Shown in pieces: positions 48,251-56,261 of a stretch of DNA of 64,000 bases. This DNA comes from Acuticoccus yangtzensis (GTDB lineage: Bacteria > Pseudomonadota > Alphaproteobacteria > Rhizobiales > Amorphaceae). Below the pieces are notes generated by a model. It made no database searches. It was not told the origin of the DNA and worked only from the letters and a program-made list of their open reading frames with translations. The stretch's first letter is position 1, and each line of letters begins with the position of its first letter. The stretch is from the NCBI RefSeq assembly GCF_001927245.1, contig NZ_MJUX01000001.1, positions 310,001 to 374,000 on the forward strand, in the 5' to 3' direction. The position numbers and the translations under genes are program-made.

Positions 48251-48696
48251 GGCGGGCCGAGGCGGCGGGCGGCGCGCAATACCGGGCGCGGACGATTTCT
48301 GCCACGCTGCGGCGTTCTCGTGGCGACTGCTCGGGCCGAACGGTGGTAGTAAAGTGCCGCTATGATCGCGTCTCGTTTGCCACCGAAGCTACGTCCGGAC
48401 CTTGCAACCGTTCAGGCCCGTCCGATCCTCGCCTTGACGGGACAGCACAACTATAGGACGGTCTTCACGTCCTCCCGCGGTTCGCCGGCTGCGGGAGCGC
48501 GTGCCGAGAGTGGTGCTGCCTGCTCTGCCGTCACACACCCCCGGCCAGATTGGGATCGTGTGTCACGATGATGTTTCCCACAGCCAACCCCGCAACACCG
48601 GCCTTCGTGCCGCGGCCCAGCGCAGAGCGGCTGGGCAAGCGGGCACAGACCGGCTCCTCGCGACCACCCGGCGGATCCGGCCATGGGCTGCTTCAC
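48251..48696. other. Leader region of the kai operon (446 bases)
   Basis: No convincing gene. Two hairpins follow each other: AGGACG/CGTCCT (48455-48460, 48468-48473) and CTCCCGC/GCGGGAG (48472-48478, 48491-48497). TTGACG (48434) and TATAGG (48452) stand only 12 bases apart and are not a normal promoter pair. The hairpins may end the transporter operon or act in the kai leader. Confidence 0.4.
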
Positions 48697-51327
48697 ATGT
48701 TTCGATCATTGACCATTACCACGCAACTCCTGATCGCGATGGTGGGCCTCGTTCTGGTCGCCTCCGCCTCGGTCGGCTTTTCCGTCTATTGGACGGTGGA
48801 GCGCGCCATTTTGCCGCTGGTCGCGCAACGGTTGGAGGGGGACGCCCGCCGCCTGGCCAACCAGCTCATCAGCAAAACCGGAACATATCAGGCCGATCTC
48901 AAGGCACAGGCCATCTCCCAGCCGCTGGCCAAATTCGTCGAAACGATGCGCAGCGGCAGTCCCGACCGCGCCTACGGCTGGACGATGGCCGAGTGGAAGT
49001 ACGCCATCGAACAGCAGTTTATCACCGAGCTGGCGGTCAAGCCGGATTATCTTCAGTTGCGCGTCATCGGTGCCGACGGTCGCGAGCTGATCCGCGTGGA
49101 CAAGGGCGAGGCCGGCCTTCCGCCCTCCGCCGTCCCGGCGGCCGGGCTGCAGGACAAGTCGCACCGCCCGTACATTCCGGCGACACTGTCGACCGAGAGC
49201 GGCAGCATCTACGTCTCGGCCATCGACCTCAACCGCGAGTTCGGTGCGGTCGAAGAGCCCTTCGTGCCGACCGTGCGCTTCGCGATGCCCATCGACGCGG
49301 CGGACGGCTCACGCTTCGGTCTCGTGATCCTGAACGTCGACATGCGCGAAAGCTTCGACGCGCTGCGCCGCGCCGTCCCGCCGGCCTCGGACCTCTACAT
49401 CATCAACGGTGAGGGCGACTATCTCGTCCATCCGGATCGGTCGCTGGAGTTCGGATTCGACCGCGGGGAACGCATCCTCTTTTCGCAGGATCAGCCGAAC
49501 CTCGCGGCCGCGATCGGCGAGGAGGCCAGCGGCAGCACCACCATGGAAACGGACGAGACACCCTTCCTCGCCCTCGCCTGGGTGGAGGCTGAAGTGTCGC
49601 GGAACCTGCCGCCGCTCAGCATCATCATGACGCGGCCGTTGCAGCTCAGCGTCGTTGCGCCACAGGTGCGCGAGACTGCCGGCCTCGTCGCGCTGATCGC
49701 CGCGGCGCTGGCCTCCATCGCCGTGGCGCTCGCCGCGCGGGCGATCGTGCGGCCCATCGTGGCGATGACGGCGGGTGTCGCCGATGCGAGTGCCGGCCGG
49801 CCGGTCAACCTGCCCACCGATCGCGGCGGCGAGATCGGCGTCCTCGCCCGCGCCCTCACCGATTATATCGAGCGCGAGCGGTTCGATACGGCGATCGTGA
49901 ACAGCTCCAACGACGCCATTCTGACCACCGACAGGGACGGGATCATCGTCCGCTGGAACCCCGCGGCGACCCTGCTCTTCGAGGTCGCGGAGGCCAATGC
50001 GGCCGGCCGTAAGGTGGAGGACGTGATCGCCCCGCCGGGCGCTGTCGAGGTCGAAAGCTGGTTCAAGTCGGCGACGGGGCCGGGCGGTACACTGGGAGCC
50101 GTGGAGATCTCGCGCGAGCGGCGGGACGGCAGCCTGAGCGACATCGCCCTCAGACCCTCGCCGGTGAGGGCGCCGGACGGGTCGATCCTCGGCCTGTCCA
50201 TCATCGCGCGCGACGTCACCGCGAGCCGCGAGGCGCAGGAGATGTTCCGTCTATCGGTGGAATATTCCCCCGCCGGGAACGTGCTGGTCGATGCGTCCGG
50301 CACGATCATCCTCGTCAACGCGCAGACCGAGGCGGTGTTCGGCTATCCGCGTGACGAATTGATCGGCCAGCCGGTGGACAAGCTGCTGCCTCCGGCCGCG
50401 CTCGGCCAGCACGCGACCTTCATGGCCGACTATCTGAAATCGCCGAGCCGCCGCGCCATGGGCAACGAGCGCGACGTCTTCGGCCGCCGCAAAACAGGCG
50501 AAATCGTGCCGATCGAAGTTGGCTTGACGCCGGTGCCGACCCGCAACGGCATGCTGGTACTGGCGGCGATCGTCGACCAGTCGGCCGCGCGCAAGGCGCA
50601 GCGCGACCTGAAGGCCCGGTCCGACGAGCTTGAGCGCTCGAACAAGGACTTGATGCAGTTCGCCTACGTCGCCTCGCACGACCTGCAGGAGCCGTTGCGC
50701 ATGGTCGCAAGCTTCACCCAGCTTCTGGCCGACCGCTATCAGGGCCAGCTCGACGAGCGGGCGGACAAATACATCCACTTCGCCGTGGACGGGGCGAAGC
50801 GGATGCAGTCGCTCATCAACGACCTGCTCGACTATTCCCGCGTCGGGGCGACGGCGCGCGAGCTGGAGCCGGTCGACATCGCCGACATCTGGACCCGCGT
50901 CGTTCGCGTCTCGGCAAAGACGATCCAATCGACGGAGGCCGTGATCGAAACGGGCGATTTGCCCGATCGCGTTCTGGGCGACAGCGAGCACCTTTCGCGC
51001 CTTCTCCAGAACCTCTTGTCCAACGCGCTGAAATTCCGCAGCGAGGCGCCGCCCCACGTCACCTTCGGCGCCGAGCGGACCGGCGAGACCTGGACGTTCA
51101 CGATGACGGACAACGGCATCGGCTTCGAGGCGCGCGACGGCACCCGCGTGTTCGAGATGTTCCAGCGCCTGAACGACCGTGGGCGCTACGAGGGCACCGG
51201 GCTCGGCCTCGCCATCGCCAAGCGCATCGTCGACCAGCACGGCGGGCGCATCTGGGTCGACAGCAAGCCCGGCCACGGCAGTGCCTTCCACTTCACACTT
51301 TCCCCCGTTGACGAAACGAGCGCATGA
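48697..51327 (+). CDS. Membrane sensor histidine kinase (extracellular sensor, HAMP, two PAS, HisKA, HATPase)
   Basis: Predicted 876-residue kinase. Membrane segments lie at about 7-30 and 330-352, enclosing a periplasmic sensor domain of about 300 residues (dCache/CHASE-like). A HAMP-like linker (about 350-390), two PAS domains (about 388-510 and 515-635), the phospho-acceptor H661 in YVASHDLQEPLR, and the ATP domain with NLLSNALKF, DNGIGFE and GTGLGLAIAKR follow. The HDLQEPLR box is the CikA/phytochrome-like kinase type. ATG 48697 gives a proper N-terminal membrane anchor. It overlaps the response-regulator gene by 4 bases and heads the kai operon. Confidence 0.9.
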   Translation: MFRSLTITTQLLIAMVGLVLVASASVGFSVYWTVERAILPLVAQRLEGDARRLANQLISKTGTYQADLKAQAISQPLAKFVETMRSGSPDRAYGWTMAEWKYAIEQQFITELAVKPDYLQLRVIGADGRELIRVDKGEAGLPPSAVPAAGLQDKSHRPYIPATLSTESGSIYVSAIDLNREFGAVEEPFVPTVRFAMPIDAADGSRFGLVILNVDMRESFDALRRAVPPASDLYIINGEGDYLVHPDRSLEFGFDRGERILFSQDQPNLAAAIGEEASGSTTMETDETPFLALAWVEAEVSRNLPPLSIIMTRPLQLSVVAPQVRETAGLVALIAAALASIAVALAARAIVRPIVAMTAGVADASAGRPVNLPTDRGGEIGVLARALTDYIERERFDTAIVNSSNDAILTTDRDGIIVRWNPAATLLFEVAEANAAGRKVEDVIAPPGAVEVESWFKSATGPGGTLGAVEISRERRDGSLSDIALRPSPVRAPDGSILGLSIIARDVTASREAQEMFRLSVEYSPAGNVLVDASGTIILVNAQTEAVFGYPRDELIGQPVDKLLPPAALGQHATFMADYLKSPSRRAMGNERDVFGRRKTGEIVPIEVGLTPVPTRNGMLVLAAIVDQSAARKAQRDLKARSDELERSNKDLMQFAYVASHDLQEPLRMVASFTQLLADRYQGQLDERADKYIHFAVDGAKRMQSLINDLLDYSRVGATARELEPVDIADIWTRVVRVSAKTIQSTEAVIETGDLPDRVLGDSEHLSRLLQNLLSNALKFRSEAPPHVTFGAERTGETWTFTMTDNGIGFEARDGTRVFEMFQRLNDRGRYEGTGLGLAIAKRIVDQHGGRIWVDSKPGHGSAFHFTLSPVDETSA

Positions 51328-51770
51328 GCCATCCGATCAAAGTCCTTCTCGTCGAAGACAACCCTGCGGACGTGGAGCTGACGCTCGAGGCTCTCGGCAG
51401 CGGGAAGCTCCGTGTCGATCTCGACGTGGTGACCGACGGGGCGGCAGCGCTCGACTACCTGAACCGGACCGGGTCCTATCGCGGTCAGGCGGCTCCCAAC
51501 ATGATCATCCTGGACCTCAACGTTCCGCGAGTCAGCGGGCGTGATGTTCTGGCATTTGTAAAGTCGAACGAACATCTCAAACGCGTCCCCATTGTCATTC
51601 TCACCTCGTCTGCGGCAGAAACGGATGTCGCTCAGAGCTACGACCTCGGCGCGAACTGCTACGTCACGAAGCCGCTCGATTTCGGCGCTTTCCAAAACAT
51701 CGTGACATCGCTAGAAACGTTTTGGTTTACCGTTGTTTGCCTACCGACCGTGGACAAGGACGCATCATAG
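51324..51770 (+). CDS. Single-domain response regulator (Rcp1-like)
   Basis: Predicted 148-residue stand-alone receiver. Intact residues: E11-D12 in LLVEDNPADVE, phospho-acceptor D64 in MIILDLNVPRVSG, T/S in VILTSSA, and K in YVTKPLDF. The pattern NPADVELT and the long loop around LNRTGSYRG match the Rcp1/CheY-like regulators paired with phytochrome-type kinases. It is the likely partner of the kinase encoded just upstream. Its stop shares one base with the GTG of the next gene (TAGTG). Confidence 0.92.
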   Translation: MSHPIKVLLVEDNPADVELTLEALGSGKLRVDLDVVTDGAAALDYLNRTGSYRGQAAPNMIILDLNVPRVSGRDVLAFVKSNEHLKRVPIVILTSSAAETDVAQSYDLGANCYVTKPLDFGAFQNIVTSLETFWFTVVCLPTVDKDAS

Positions 51771-52585
51771 TGCCGGATAAGGTCGTCCGACGTGTCTTAC
51801 ATATCGAGCAAAATGTTGCCGATATCGAGATCGTGCGTGAATTCCTGGAAGACGATCCCGCCTCGCCGGAGGTTTATCACGTTGATCATGTAGGCGAATT
51901 GGACGATGCCATCGGCAAGCTTCAATCCGACCTTTATGATGCCGTTCTGCTGCACCTGCGTCTGGCCGCCGAAGGGGTGGCCGCGGTGCGCAAGACGGCC
52001 GCGCAGGTGCCTGTCATCGTGATCACCGGGTTCGACGACGAGACCCGCGGCCTCGAGGCGATCGATTCGGGCGCCCAGGACTATCTGTTCAAGAACGACC
52101 TGACCGCGCGCGGGCTGCGGCGGGCCATCGGCTACGCGATCAGCCGCAAGCGCGAGGCCGAAGTCCGCGTGCTGGGCGAAACCCTCACCCGCTTTCGCGA
52201 GCTCGCCTCCGAAGCGTCGACCACGTCGGTCACCGCGCGGGCGATGGGGGTCGGACCGTTGAAGGACTCCACGCCGGAGCTTTTCGACGAGGCGGTCGGC
52301 TTTTACGCGCGCCTCATGAAGCGTTACGTTATGGCTCCACGAAGTGAACATACGGAGCCGCGGGATGGCATGGAACGGTTGATCACGCGTCTCGGCGACA
52401 TGGGGGCCGGCCCCAAGGACATGATCGACCTGCACGCGAGTGCCCTCGAGGAAGTTTTGCACACCGAGCGCAAGGCGGAAACCAACATCATGATCGTGGA
52501 GGGGCGCCTCTTCGCGCTGGAGATGATGGGATTACTTGTCAATTATTATCGTCTCGGCCACCGACGCCTGACGTGGGGGCGCTGA
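51770..52585 (+). CDS. Pseudo-receiver protein with KaiA/RsbU-like C-terminal domain (candidate KaiA-like)
   Basis: Predicted 271-residue protein. Residues 5-125 form a receiver fold ([34 protein letters not shown]), but the phospho-acceptor position is H62 in DAVLLHLRL, and the acidic pair is E13-Q14, so it cannot be phosphorylated normally. A helical linker (about 118-150) leads to a four-helix-like domain (about 165-271) with [32 protein letters not shown] and [17 protein letters not shown], the pattern of RsbU N-terminal and KaiA C-terminal domains. This is the KaiA domain plan. GTG 51770 is coupled to the upstream stop and the stop shares a base with kaiB. It may set KaiC phosphorylation, or be a signalling adaptor. 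Confidence 0.8.
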
Positions 52586-52884
52586 TGCGGTACCGACTGC
52601 GCCTTTTCATCACCGGCCGAACCCCGTTCTCGCAACGTGCGATTGCCAATCTGCATGAAATTTGCGAGCATGAATTGAAAGGCCGCTGCGACGTCGAGAT
52701 CATCGACGTGCTCGAAAATCCCGCTGCAGCGGAGGAAGACAAAATTTTGGCGACACCGACGCTCGTCCGCAAGCTTCCGGAACCCGTCCGAAAGATCATC
52801 GGCGACCTCAGCGATCTTGAGAAAGTCTATATCGGGCTCGACGTGACTCCCTCCGGTTCTTCGACCGTGCGCAGCGGGCAATGA
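52585..52884 (+). CDS. kaiB: Circadian clock protein KaiB
   Basis: Predicted 99-residue KaiB, a thioredoxin-like protein that switches fold and binds phosphorylated KaiC. The sequence [20 protein letters not shown] and [19 protein letters not shown], then [17 protein letters not shown] match KaiB along its whole length. ATG 52585 shares one base with the preceding stop (TGATG) and kaiC starts one base after the kaiB stop, so all three are made together. Confidence 0.95.
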
Positions 52885-52885
52885 C

Positions 52886-54409
52886 GTGACGACACCCAAG
52901 CTCCTCAAAAAACTCGAAACGGGCATTGCCGGCCTCGACGAAATCGCCAACGGAGGGCTGCCGCACGGCCGCTCGACGTTGATCGCCGGCACCGCCGGCA
53001 GCGGCAAGACCGTCATGGCCCTGCAGTTCCTCTACTGCGGCATTACCGACTACGACGAAAACGGCGTCCTCGTGACCTTCGAGGAAACACCGGCCGACAT
53101 GATGGCCAACGTGGCCTCCTTCGGCTGGAACCTCGAAGCCTTGGTGGAGGCCGGCAAACTCGCGATCGTGGACGCCGCGCCCGACCCGTCGGAAGACATC
53201 ATCGAAGCCGGCGGGCACGACCTCGCGGCGCTGATGGCGCGGATCGAACGGGCCGTGCGCAAGGTGGGCGCTCAGCGCGTCATCCTCGACGCGGTCGGCG
53301 CCCTCTTCCCGCAATTCTCCGACGCGCTCCTCGTCCGGCGCGAGCTGCAACGCATCCTCGCCGGGCTGCGCCTCCTCGGCGTCACCACCATCATCAATCT
53401 GGAACGCACCGAGGACGAAGGCCCGGTCGGCCGCTTCGGCGTCGAGGAGTTCGTCGCCGACAACGTGCTTCTGGTGCGCAACCGGCTCGACATGGAAAAG
53501 CGCCGCCGCACCATCGAAATTCTGAAGTTCCGCGGGGCCACCCACCAGAAGGGCGAATATCCCTTCACGATCGACGAGCTCGACGGCGTCACCGTCCTGC
53601 CGCTCTCGGCCACCAGCCTGCAGCAGTCGTCGTCGGACCTGCGCCACTCGTCCGGCGTGCCGGAGCTCGACGAGATGTGCGGCGGCGGCATCTACCGCGA
53701 TTCCATCATCCTCGTCTCCGGCGCCACCGGCACCGGCAAGACGCTGATGGTGACAGAATACGTCAAAGCCGCGATCACCGCCGGCCAGCGCGTCCTCCTC
53801 ATCGGCGCGGAGGAAAGCCGCGACCAGCTCGGCCGCAACGCCAAAGCCTGGGGCGCCGACTTCGACAAAGCCGAAGAGGACGGCCTCCTCAAGGTCATCT
53901 GCCGCTATCCCGAGGTCATGGGCCTCGAAGATCACCTGCTGCAGATGAAGCGCGACATCCGCGAGTTCAAACCCACCCGCATCGCCGTCGACTCGCTGTC
54001 CGCCTTCGAGCGCGTCTCATCGGTCAAGTCGTTCCGTGAATTCGTCATCGGAATCACGGGATTTATCAAAGAACAGCAAATTACGGGTCTGTTCACCAAC
54101 ACCACGTCGATGTTGATCGGCGGCGAATCCATCACCGAAACTCATATTTCGACGATTACTGACTCCATCATTCTTTTGCGCTATGTGGAGCTGTTCGGCG
54201 AGATGCGGCGCGGCCTCACCGTCCTCAAGATGCGCGGAACCTGGCACGAAAAGGAGATTCGCGAATACGTGATCGACGGCAACGGCATGTCGATCAAAGG
54301 CCCGTTCAAAGGCGTCCACGGCATCCTGTCCGGCATGCCGACCTACAGCTTCACGACCGAGGCCGAACGTATGGAAACGATGTTCAACATTGAAAGAGGG
54401 TCGAGCTGA
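52886..54409 (+). CDS. kaiC: Circadian clock ATPase/autokinase KaiC
   Basis: Predicted 507-residue double-RecA ATPase. The CI half has Walker A GTAGSGKT (35-42) and catalytic E66-E67 in VTFEETPADM; the CII half has GATGTGKT (279-286) and E309-E310 in LIGAEESRDQL. The phosphorylation pair S422-T423 lies in ETHISTITDSIIL, equal to S431/T432 of Synechococcus KaiC. The C-terminal A-loop region (about 475-485, GVHGILSGMP) and tail are present, so a KaiA-like partner could bind. The length equals true KaiC, not the single-domain RadA-like relatives. The GTG start follows kaiB by one base. Confidence 0.95.
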   Translation: MTTPKLLKKLETGIAGLDEIANGGLPHGRSTLIAGTAGSGKTVMALQFLYCGITDYDENGVLVTFEETPADMMANVASFGWNLEALVEAGKLAIVDAAPDPSEDIIEAGGHDLAALMARIERAVRKVGAQRVILDAVGALFPQFSDALLVRRELQRILAGLRLLGVTTIINLERTEDEGPVGRFGVEEFVADNVLLVRNRLDMEKRRRTIEILKFRGATHQKGEYPFTIDELDGVTVLPLSATSLQQSSSDLRHSSGVPELDEMCGGGIYRDSIILVSGATGTGKTLMVTEYVKAAITAGQRVLLIGAEESRDQLGRNAKAWGADFDKAEEDGLLKVICRYPEVMGLEDHLLQMKRDIREFKPTRIAVDSLSAFERVSSVKSFREFVIGITGFIKEQQITGLFTNTTSMLIGGESITETHISTITDSIILLRYVELFGEMRRGLTVLKMRGTWHEKEIREYVIDGNGMSIKGPFKGVHGILSGMPTYSFTTEAERMETMFNIERGSS

Positions 54410-54443: not shown

Positions 54444-56261
54444 GTGTATCCCACTGACGACAGCAAGAGTCTCCTTCTCGTCGAAGACAACCCGGCCGAC
54501 GCGGCCCTCACCGCCGCCCTCCTCGAGGGGGCCGACGTCTCGTTCGAGATCCTGATCGCCAGCTCGCTGGAGCAGGCGCTCACGCTCCTGGCCGAACACG
54601 ACATCGACGCGGTCGTCCTCGACCTGAACCTGCCCGATTCACGCGGCGTCGACACCCTGCGCAGCGTGCGAACCGCCCACCACGACGTGGCCATCGTCGT
54701 CGTGTCCGGCGCCAACCCGCCGGGACTGCGGGCCGAAGTGCTGGCCGAGGGCGCTCAGGACTACATCTGGAAGAACGAGCCGGACGCCAACTTCCTCGCC
54801 CGCTGCATCCTCTACGCCGTGGAGCGGCACCGCGCCCAGGAGGCCCACCGCAGCGTCCGCCAGCTTCTCGACGCGAACCCGGACGCGATGATCGTCGTCG
54901 ACGGGGACGGAATCGTGCGCTACGTCAACCGCGCCGCCGAAGAGCTGATCGACCAGGGGTCCAACCTCCTCGGCGAATGGCTCGGCTTCTCGTCGGGCGA
55001 GCGGCTGACCGAGATCCAGATCCTCAACGGCGGCAAGCCGCGCACGTGCGAAATGAAGGTCGCCGACATCGAGTGGCAGGGCCAGCGCGCCACCCTCGCC
55101 GCCATCCGCGACGTCACCGAGAACCGCCTCCTCGCCGAACAGGTGCGCGCCGCCCAGAAGATGGAAGCGCTCGGCATGCTGGCCGGCGGCGTCGCCCACG
55201 ACTTCAACAACCTCCTCGTCGTCATCATGGGCAACCTCGAATTCCTACGCGAGGACATCGCCGACGAAGAGCAACTCACCATGCTGTCGCGCATCGAGAC
55301 CGCGACCGAGCGCGCCCGCACGCTGACGCGCCAGCTCCTCGCCATGTCGCGCCGCCAGCCCTCGCACCCCATCGTGGTGCGCCCGAACGACCTCATCATC
55401 AAAAGCTACACGATGCTGCGGCCGAGCTTCCCGAAGGACATCGACCTCGCCTTCATCCCGGCCGAGAACATCTGGAACGTGCGGATCGACCCGTCCGAAT
55501 TCGACCAGGTGCTGATGAACCTCGCCTTCAATGCCAAGCACGCTCTGCCGCGCGGCGGGCGGGTGCAGGTGGATGTCGCCAACGTCACCGTGCGCGAGCC
55601 GATCGGCAGCGTCATGCCGGGCGACTATGTGCGCGTGCGCGTGTCGGACAACGGAACAGGCATTACGCCCGAACACCTGGAGCGGATCTTCGAGCCCTTC
55701 TTCTCCACCAAGGTCGCCGGGACCGGGACGGGGCTCGGCCTTGCCATCTGCCAGGGCATCGCGCGCAAGGCGGGGGGTGACATCATCGTCAACTCCACGC
55801 TCGGCGAGGGGAGCACCTTCACCATCCTTCTGCCGCGCACGCACGACTCGGTGACGACGCCGGAGAACGCGGCGAGCCTGCCTCAGGTGGTGGGCGACGA
55901 GACCATCCTCGTGGTGGAGGACGATGCTGCGGTGGCCGGTTCCATCCAGCATGCGCTGCAGATGCGCGGCTTCCGCACCATCCACGTGGACGATGGCGAG
56001 AAGGCGACGCGCGTCCTCAGCGACACCAACCAGGACATCGACCTCGTCCTCAGCGACGTGGTGATGCCGCGCATGGGCGGGGTGGAGCTGGCGCGCTGGA
56101 TGACCGAGAATCGCCCCGAAATGAAGGTGCTTCTCGCCACCGGCTATGCCGACAATGTCGACGCCCTGCGCGCCGAGAACAACCCGATGCGCGAATTTCT
56201 GTTCAAGCCCTTCGCCCCCACCGACCTCATCGCGACCGTGCGCATGATGCTGGACCGCTGA
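54444..56261 (+). CDS. Hybrid histidine kinase (receiver, PAS, HisKA, HATPase, receiver)
   Basis: Predicted 605-residue cytoplasmic kinase without membrane segments. First receiver (about 8-125) with D60 in AVVLDLNLPD; PAS (about 145-245); HisKA with GGVAHDFNNLLVVIMGN; ATP domain with NLAFNAKHALP, DNGTGI, GTGLGLAICQG; second receiver with D in LVLSDVVMPRMGG near residue 535. The AHDFNNLL box is the HWE-unlike, NtrB/CckA-type group. GTG 54444 is chosen because the first receiver begins at once; TTG 54390 would add 18 residues and overlap kaiC by 20 bases. It is the likely output or input kinase of the kai operon. Confidence 0.88.
   Translation: MYPTDDSKSLLLVEDNPADAALTAALLEGADVSFEILIASSLEQALTLLAEHDIDAVVLDLNLPDSRGVDTLRSVRTAHHDVAIVVVSGANPPGLRAEVLAEGAQDYIWKNEPDANFLARCILYAVERHRAQEAHRSVRQLLDANPDAMIVVDGDGIVRYVNRAAEELIDQGSNLLGEWLGFSSGERLTEIQILNGGKPRTCEMKVADIEWQGQRATLAAIRDVTENRLLAEQVRAAQKMEALGMLAGGVAHDFNNLLVVIMGNLEFLREDIADEEQLTMLSRIETATERARTLTRQLLAMSRRQPSHPIVVRPNDLIIKSYTMLRPSFPKDIDLAFIPAENIWNVRIDPSEFDQVLMNLAFNAKHALPRGGRVQVDVANVTVREPIGSVMPGDYVRVRVSDNGTGITPEHLERIFEPFFSTKVAGTGTGLGLAICQGIARKAGGDIIVNSTLGEGSTFTILLPRTHDSVTTPENAASLPQVVGDETILVVEDDAAVAGSIQHALQMRGFRTIHVDDGEKATRVLSDTNQDIDLVLSDVVMPRMGGVELARWMTENRPEMKVLLATGYADNVDALRAENNPMREFLFKPFAPTDLIATVRMMLDR

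Follow-up and report, generated by a model that had tools for sequence, protein, structure and literature searches.

Here, we characterized a KaiA-like gene located directly upstream of kaiB and kaiC in the marine heterotroph Acuticoccus yangtzensis, within a window of 64,000 nucleotides (contig NZ_MJUX01000001.1, positions 310,001-374,000). As judged from sequence profiles and predicted structure, the C-terminal domain of the encoded protein is a KaiA domain, it follows a receiver that lacks the phosphorylation residues, and the gene usually travels with kaiB and kaiC. It is probable, from these comparisons and models, that the protein is a KaiA3-type activator of the KaiC of the same operon, which would bind the KaiC tail and stimulate autophosphorylation. 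The system is of a known kind, since KaiA relatives outside cyanobacteria have already been published: KaiA3, a receiver joined to a KaiA-like domain and encoded before kaiB3, is described in the available text of Kobler et al. (2024, PMC11372060), which also cites a further survey by Geron et al., and kaiA was found in two non-cyanobacterial records as well, according to the available text of Dvornyk and Mei (2021, PMC8113500). What appears to be new here is a response regulator, sharing at least 40% identity with that of the window, upstream of the gene in 29 of 39 loci, a derived pseudo-receiver, and a KaiC tail that tracks the presence of the KaiA-domain gene.

The KaiA-like ORF (51770-52585, + strand, GTG start, 271 amino acids) is the third of six same-strand genes in a row, an order shared with three other genomes of the genus (G003, G004, and G005). 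The first gene encodes a sensor histidine kinase (48550-51327, +; a mechanical TTG start, so the true start may be further downstream) with a bacterial histidine kinase sensor domain, a weak HAMP match, two PAS domains, HisKA, and HATPase by Pfam. Homologues occupy the same place in G003, G004, G005, and G006, and the protein is a candidate for the kinase that feeds input into the operon. The second gene encodes a stand-alone response regulator (51324-51770, +) that keeps its phospho-acceptor Asp (IILDLN), and its stop codon overlaps the GTG of the KaiA-like gene by one base. The stop codon of the latter (52583-52585) in turn overlaps the ATG of kaiB (52585) by one base. The kaiB gene (52585-52884, +) matched Pfam KaiB (E 6.2e-28) and KaiB chains in the PDB, and kaiC (52886-54409, +) encodes 507 amino acids with a Ser422-Thr423 pair in HISTITD and no coiled-coil extension. 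The row closes with a hybrid histidine kinase (54444-56261, +; REC-PAS-HisKA-HATPase-REC), a possible output of the KaiABC set; its mechanical ORF begins at 54390, and the GTG at 54444 was chosen as the probable start because homologues align from there. Promoter and terminator scans gave signals not clearly above those of shuffled sequences. A photosynthetic reaction-centre gene (PF00124) was not found in the A. yangtzensis genome (5,043,263 bases, rated 96% complete), and the genome paper (PMC5747140) contains no mention of circadian, kai, or photosynth- words.

The ORF, Pfam, and AlphaFold2 data confirmed the architecture given in the initial annotation, namely a receiver with His62, a helical linker, a four-helix domain, and a one-base overlap with kaiB; the two patterns it had recorded ([11 protein letters not shown] and [16 protein letters not shown]) are both present. 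The full-length model (mean pLDDT 79, pTM 0.56) consists of a five-strand pseudo-receiver (residues ~5-110), a long helix (113-146), a segment with pLDDT below 50 (149-160), and a KaiA domain (~165-262) with helices at 169-188, 195-210, 215-232, and 235-261. Modelled in isolation, the domain reached a pLDDT of 84.8 and a pTM of 0.79, and Foldseek returned KaiA at all of ranks 1-9 (probability 1.00; TM by query 0.62-0.69) with E-values of 0.05-0.34 and no match at 0.001 or better. Superposition of the full-length model on full-length KaiA (4g86) covered both domains but was poor (rank 18, TM 0.31, rmsd 19). Structure prediction of the protein alone, a check proposed at the outset, thus gave a KaiA fold for the C-terminal domain, and the outcome that had been named as counter-evidence, a match to a histidine phosphotransfer domain or some other unrelated fold, did not occur. 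Two-component genes flank the gene on both sides, as might be expected if the domain were an output domain of a two-component system, such as a histidine-phosphotransfer domain, fused to a receiver. However, Pfam found no histidine-phosphotransfer match and none was named among the 50 fold matches listed; we disfavor this reading as exceedingly unlikely.

At the sequence level, the homology of the window protein to KaiA rests on its relatives and on the fold, since its own scores fail: Pfam KaiA (PF07688; gathering score 22.2 bits) did not match it at E up to 1 or any other protein in the A. yangtzensis genome, and a reverse profile built from three cyanobacterial KaiA sequences, which gave E 1e-4 to 0.009 for the top-scoring relatives, gave it 0.2 bits (E 2). 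Because the C-terminal fragment, searched against the PDB as a single sequence, returned nothing useful, a profile of relatives was required. A 15-sequence profile placed eight KaiA sequences as the first 8 of 16 PDB matches (E 0.0015-0.011, with the next at E 0.38), and an eight-sequence profile had eight KaiA among 17 matches, the best of these KaiA (E 0.033) being outranked by a ribosomal protein (E 0.024). A KaiA query on PDB sequences retrieved the same eight KaiA sequences, and profile-profile comparison of one pair gave E 1.4e-5 at a probability of only 58%. Pfam KaiA matched 2 of the 15 profile members, the better being a Rhodospirillales protein (E 0.0021, 18.7 bits) that falls below the cut-off. 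The position of Synechococcus KaiA H271, which we take to be important for KaiC, is Leu in the window protein, and only 10 of 39 proteins have His there. Four further residues, M241, D242, L265, and D267, for which the available text of PMC8113500 gives 100% conservation among cyanobacterial KaiA, correspond to L, E, A, and E (none identical), in a mapping read by eye from the 15-sequence-profile alignment, where E251 falls in a gap region. Its score with the reverse profile places the window protein with the more divergent members of the KaiA-like group. The original claim of a divergent KaiA homologue before kaiBC was nevertheless borne out for the C-terminal domain by the 15-sequence profile and the Foldseek ranks.

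The initial annotation had also named the RsbU N-terminal family for profile searches. The profile of relatives finds KaiA; the window protein itself has no Pfam KaiA match, and its isolated C-terminal part has a weak match to RsbU_N (PF08673). The domain could accordingly be read as an RsbU-N-like signalling domain that binds another partner, such as a kinase or ATPase of the upstream two-component system, with its adjacency to kaiBC reflecting a shared regulon. RsbU_N, which has the same four-helix fold according to the available text of PMC11372060, was the sole Pfam family to which the C-terminal fragment, taken by itself, gave a match (E 0.16, 12.6 bits), and it matched 5 of the 15 profile members vs. 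2 for KaiA. However, these matches (best E 0.058) are weaker than those to KaiA and below the curated cut-off of 25.5 bits, and no RsbU appeared among the 50 Foldseek matches listed, in which KaiA holds ranks 1-9. Pfam matched no phosphatase domain in the protein. Gene neighborhood and the KaiC tail, discussed below, bear on the same alternative, which we judge unlikely.

The receiver was matched by Pfam Response_reg over residues 10-109 (E 8.9e-9), and His62 occupies its phospho-acceptor position. The Asp and the acidic pair are kept in 36 of 39 receiver-KaiA proteins, the window's included in the total (these counts omit L070 of G235, at a contig end; L071, a PAS-PAS fusion; and the fragment L046). 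The three exceptions are the proteins of the window, G003, and G005, all from Acuticoccus, which have His at the acceptor position and Glu-Gln at the acidic pair, lack about four residues after strand 3 in the phosphorylation loop, and form one clade with support of 100/100. Since Asp is found in all the others, the pseudo-receiver looks to be a derived state local to these three proteins. In the available text of PMC11372060, aligned KaiA3 sequences keep the phospho-Asp intact in all species but Pleurocapsa and Microcystis; given these two exceptions, the Asp is a typical rather than a defining feature of KaiA3. The window protein differs in its acceptor, pocket, and loop. It also differs from the pseudo-receiver of KaiA, which lacks helix 4 according to the same text, in that its model keeps a helix (91-99) between strands 4 and 5.

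Loss of the Asp, of one acidic-pocket residue, and of about four loop residues could also mean that the protein is a relic of KaiA3 or an inhibitor, a drifted protein that titrates KaiC or KaiB and does not stimulate phosphorylation; the protein is indeed only 63-66% identical where KaiC is 89-91% identical. However, comparison with G003 gave a dN of 0.28 and a dS of 1.7 (near saturation), and the gene as a whole is, by this estimate, under purifying selection. Moreover, the receiver (54% identity to G003 and 53% to G005) diverges faster than the KaiA domain (75 and 68%), and the RLFALEMMG helix is almost invariant in eight near relatives. We therefore consider a relic or inhibitor very unlikely. 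Of the seven other genomes of the genus that were searched, three (G003, G004, and G005) carry a clear orthologue (53-66% identity) beside kaiB; the protein is absent from G001, G002, and G007, and G006 has a distant one only. Because of the orthologues beside kaiB and the purifying selection, the ORF does not owe its existence to chance. Across 35 loci, KaiA and KaiC distances are correlated (Mantel r 0.65, 0 of 2000 permutations), which points to co-inheritance of the KaiA-like protein and KaiC and is consistent also with shared species history.

Another feature of the locus is the kind of KaiC it encodes. The window KaiC scored 681 bits against its best KaiC chain (8zn5); its scores were 589 bits with the Synechococcus chain 1tf7 and 354 bits with the Rhodobacter sphaeroides chain 8dba, and it has 24 residues from the Met of SGMPT to the end, vs. 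27 by the same count in Synechococcus (chain 1u9i, 519 residues). In sequence, it is of the KaiC1/KaiC3 kind, with a Ser-Thr pair and no extension. The suggestion that the KaiA-like protein made an oscillator out of an hourglass KaiBC fits this locus poorly, since the window KaiC lacks the R. sphaeroides-type C-terminal extension and is thus not an hourglass KaiC2 to which a KaiA was added. The R. sphaeroides KaiBC hourglass (Pitsawong et al., 2023, PMC10076222) likewise pairs an alphaproteobacterial kaiB and kaiC. In contrast to the window, its locus has the order kaiC-kaiB and no KaiA-domain match within 6 kb, and its KaiC has Ser-Ser sites and a 92-residue tail, a coiled coil in the available text of that report. 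The starting assumption that kaiBC loci outside cyanobacteria have no KaiA held for the KaiC2-type loci examined (e.g., Cereibacter sphaeroides, 6 kb either side) but not more widely, as the available text of PMC11372060 lists KaiA3 orthologues in Rhodospirillum, Bradyrhizobium, Roseiflexus, Chloroflexus, and Chloroherpeton. Chloroflexus aggregans is the only one there for which kaiA3B3C3 synteny does not hold.

The tail of KaiC goes with the KaiA-domain gene. Among 29 KaiC encoded beside such a gene, 28 have tails of 18-29 residues (the exception, L071, has 13) and 25 carry the motif [LMIV]xx[ML]F (28 in a looser form); the Ser-Thr phosphosite pair is not universal, many being Ser-Ser. For comparison, 18 KaiA-less loci were taken and the KaiC C-terminus was obtained from 17. 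Five comparable KaiC (48.8-59.0% identical) from kaiB-kaiC loci with no KaiA-domain match nearby (L129, L130, and L138-L140) have tails of 4-14 residues and none has the motif; KaiA absence refers to whole genomes for L138-L140 (G367, G188, and G106) and to the surroundings for the plasmid loci. Twelve more distant KaiA-less KaiC (27-41% identity) have tails of 5-92 residues, ten of them at least 64. A Rhizobium locus (L131, KaiC 53% identical, no KaiA-domain match nearby) was left out because its KaiC frame stops at 444 residues, before the tail. The motif was picked after the tails had been inspected, and only L041 among the 12 KaiC2-like tails was scored for it, and the Fisher values ignore kinship; the association of a tail of canonical length with the KaiA-domain gene is thus a correlation with a post hoc motif. 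Such a tail would be expected if the KaiA-like protein grips it, and its link to the gene argues against an RsbU-N-like domain with another partner.

The KaiA-like domain was detected in at least 7 of 385 alphaproteobacterial genomes, including one weak and unconfirmed match; since up to 10 candidates were scored per genome, some weak members could have escaped detection. KaiB turned up in 19 of the 385, in 14 above its cut-off, and four genomes have both (G000, G041, G203, and G375), leaving 10 of the 14 KaiB genomes without a KaiA-domain protein among the candidates scored. G235 and G338 have a KaiA-domain protein without KaiB. Across the phylum, the domain occurred in 22 of 398 genomes; apart from that of the window and a second genome of its order, all of them (20) belong to other classes than the window's. 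Because these 20 span only 7 genera and 6 families, the 39 loci are far from independent. No relative was found in the viral contigs scanned, and the plasmids searched with a relative's KaiA domain gave no match. Two candidates were dropped: Paraburkholderia caribensis (L095) as a kinase-regulator-KaiA locus, its third protein being REC-PAS-HisKA_3-HATPase, and a weak C-terminal match in G249 (E 8.5e-4, 50 columns) whose surroundings match no window protein.

In 36 of the 39 loci, kaiB and kaiC lie on the same strand within 1.5 kb, the misses being G006, G338, and L107 (at a contig end). A kinase like the window's lies upstream in 20 loci, with an upstream flank of only ~1 kb or less in 25. 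The survey thus supports the expected neighborhood in that the KaiA-like gene is usually beside kaiBC, but not in the sense that it always is. In G006 (L027:2713-6769) and G338 (L068:3400-8127), receiver-KaiA proteins sit behind a kinase and response regulator with no KaiB or full KaiC found. G235 is probably a third genome with such a protein (L070:205-879, cut by a contig end) and without these Kai partners. A KaiC query gave one short match in each of the three genomes, inside the second ATPase domain. Since the KaiA domain occurs there without KaiB and KaiC, it need not act on KaiC, an observation that favors the RsbU-N-like reading as far as G006 and G338 are concerned; the presence of kaiB and kaiC alongside in 36 loci speaks against it.

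Additional kai sets were also observed. A second set of KaiA-like, KaiB, KaiC, and hybrid kinase genes, with no kinase/regulator pair, is present in A. yangtzensis, G003, and G005. In A. yangtzensis, it lies at L021:6591-11031 (contig C12, ~512.6-517.0 kb), its KaiA-like receiver keeps the Asp, and the gene just upstream presumably encodes a polyphosphate kinase 2, judging by motif. In G203 (L071:6436-9764), the KaiA domain ends a protein that also contains two PAS domains, and the gene precedes kaiB and a divergent kaiC with a Met-Thr phosphosite pair. A second KaiA-domain subtype occurs in another class of the phylum (L114-L117 and L120-L123), next to a kaiB present in one or two copies or following another kaiC, and L124 (G511) and L125 (G480) each contain two adjacent kaiABC sets. 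Two consecutive kaiB genes follow a KaiC2-like kaiC in four alphaproteobacterial genomes (L073, L075, L077, and L078), and a Rhodospirillales kaiABC locus has an additional kaiB 3' of the hybrid kinase (L044:7322-7651).

The window protein resembles KaiA3 (Sll0485 of Synechocystis PCC 6803) in its receiver and KaiA-like C-terminal domain, in a gene placed directly before kaiB with kaiC next, and in a partner KaiC without an extended C-terminus; we term it KaiA3-like on the strength of the published description. Like canonical KaiA of Synechococcus and Thermosynechococcus, it has a pseudo-receiver without the phospho-Asp, a linker, and a four-helix domain, and it is encoded before kaiB; unlike canonical KaiA, it scores below the Pfam cut-off and residues conserved in cyanobacterial KaiA are altered. 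With a 24-residue KaiC tail and a KaiA-domain gene present, the window does not hold a KaiC2-type hourglass. The upstream kinase/regulator pair has no counterpart in the available text of PMC11372060, which names no cognate kinase for KaiA3. No mention of such a pair or of Acuticoccus clocks was found in the literature searched, mostly outside subscription journals, nor any of KaiA-domain proteins without KaiBC in searches aimed at other topics.

KaiA3 stimulates KaiC3 in vitro and takes part in a damped oscillator in vitro, according to the available text of PMC11372060. By analogy, the KaiA domain of the window protein would dimerize, grip the C-terminal tail of KaiC, and hold the A-loop out, promoting autophosphorylation at Ser422/Thr423, and KaiB on phosphorylated KaiC would oppose this action, presumably by sequestration. 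The upstream histidine kinase and response regulator would probably pass an environmental signal to the KaiA-like protein, and the hybrid kinase may serve as the output. The receiver could itself accept phosphate in most relatives; that of this Acuticoccus lineage cannot, so it would act as a ligand- or partner-binding pseudo-receiver. A self-sustained rhythm of such a set would be possible but is less likely than not. We think it rather improbable, though conceivable, that A. yangtzensis, a bacterium with no photosynthetic reaction centre, operates two KaiABC timers, the window's with a KaiA that became blind to phosphorylation independently of cyanobacterial KaiA and is fed by the kinase and regulator of its own operon, the other with a phosphorylatable KaiA, and that the kinase-regulator-KaiA module may once have stood apart from KaiBC, as it does in G006 and G338 unless these lost KaiBC, giving clock input a two-component origin.

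KaiA3 provided a first handle on whether KaiA-driven clocks exist outside cyanobacteria. The locus described here is a testable set in a cultured type strain, comprising the three Kai proteins, a kinase and a response regulator as candidates for the input, and a further kinase as a candidate for the output, and natural Asp-bearing and His-bearing versions of KaiA exist in related species. Together with the link between the KaiC tail and the KaiA-domain gene, this makes both the origin of KaiA and the wiring of its input open to experiment.
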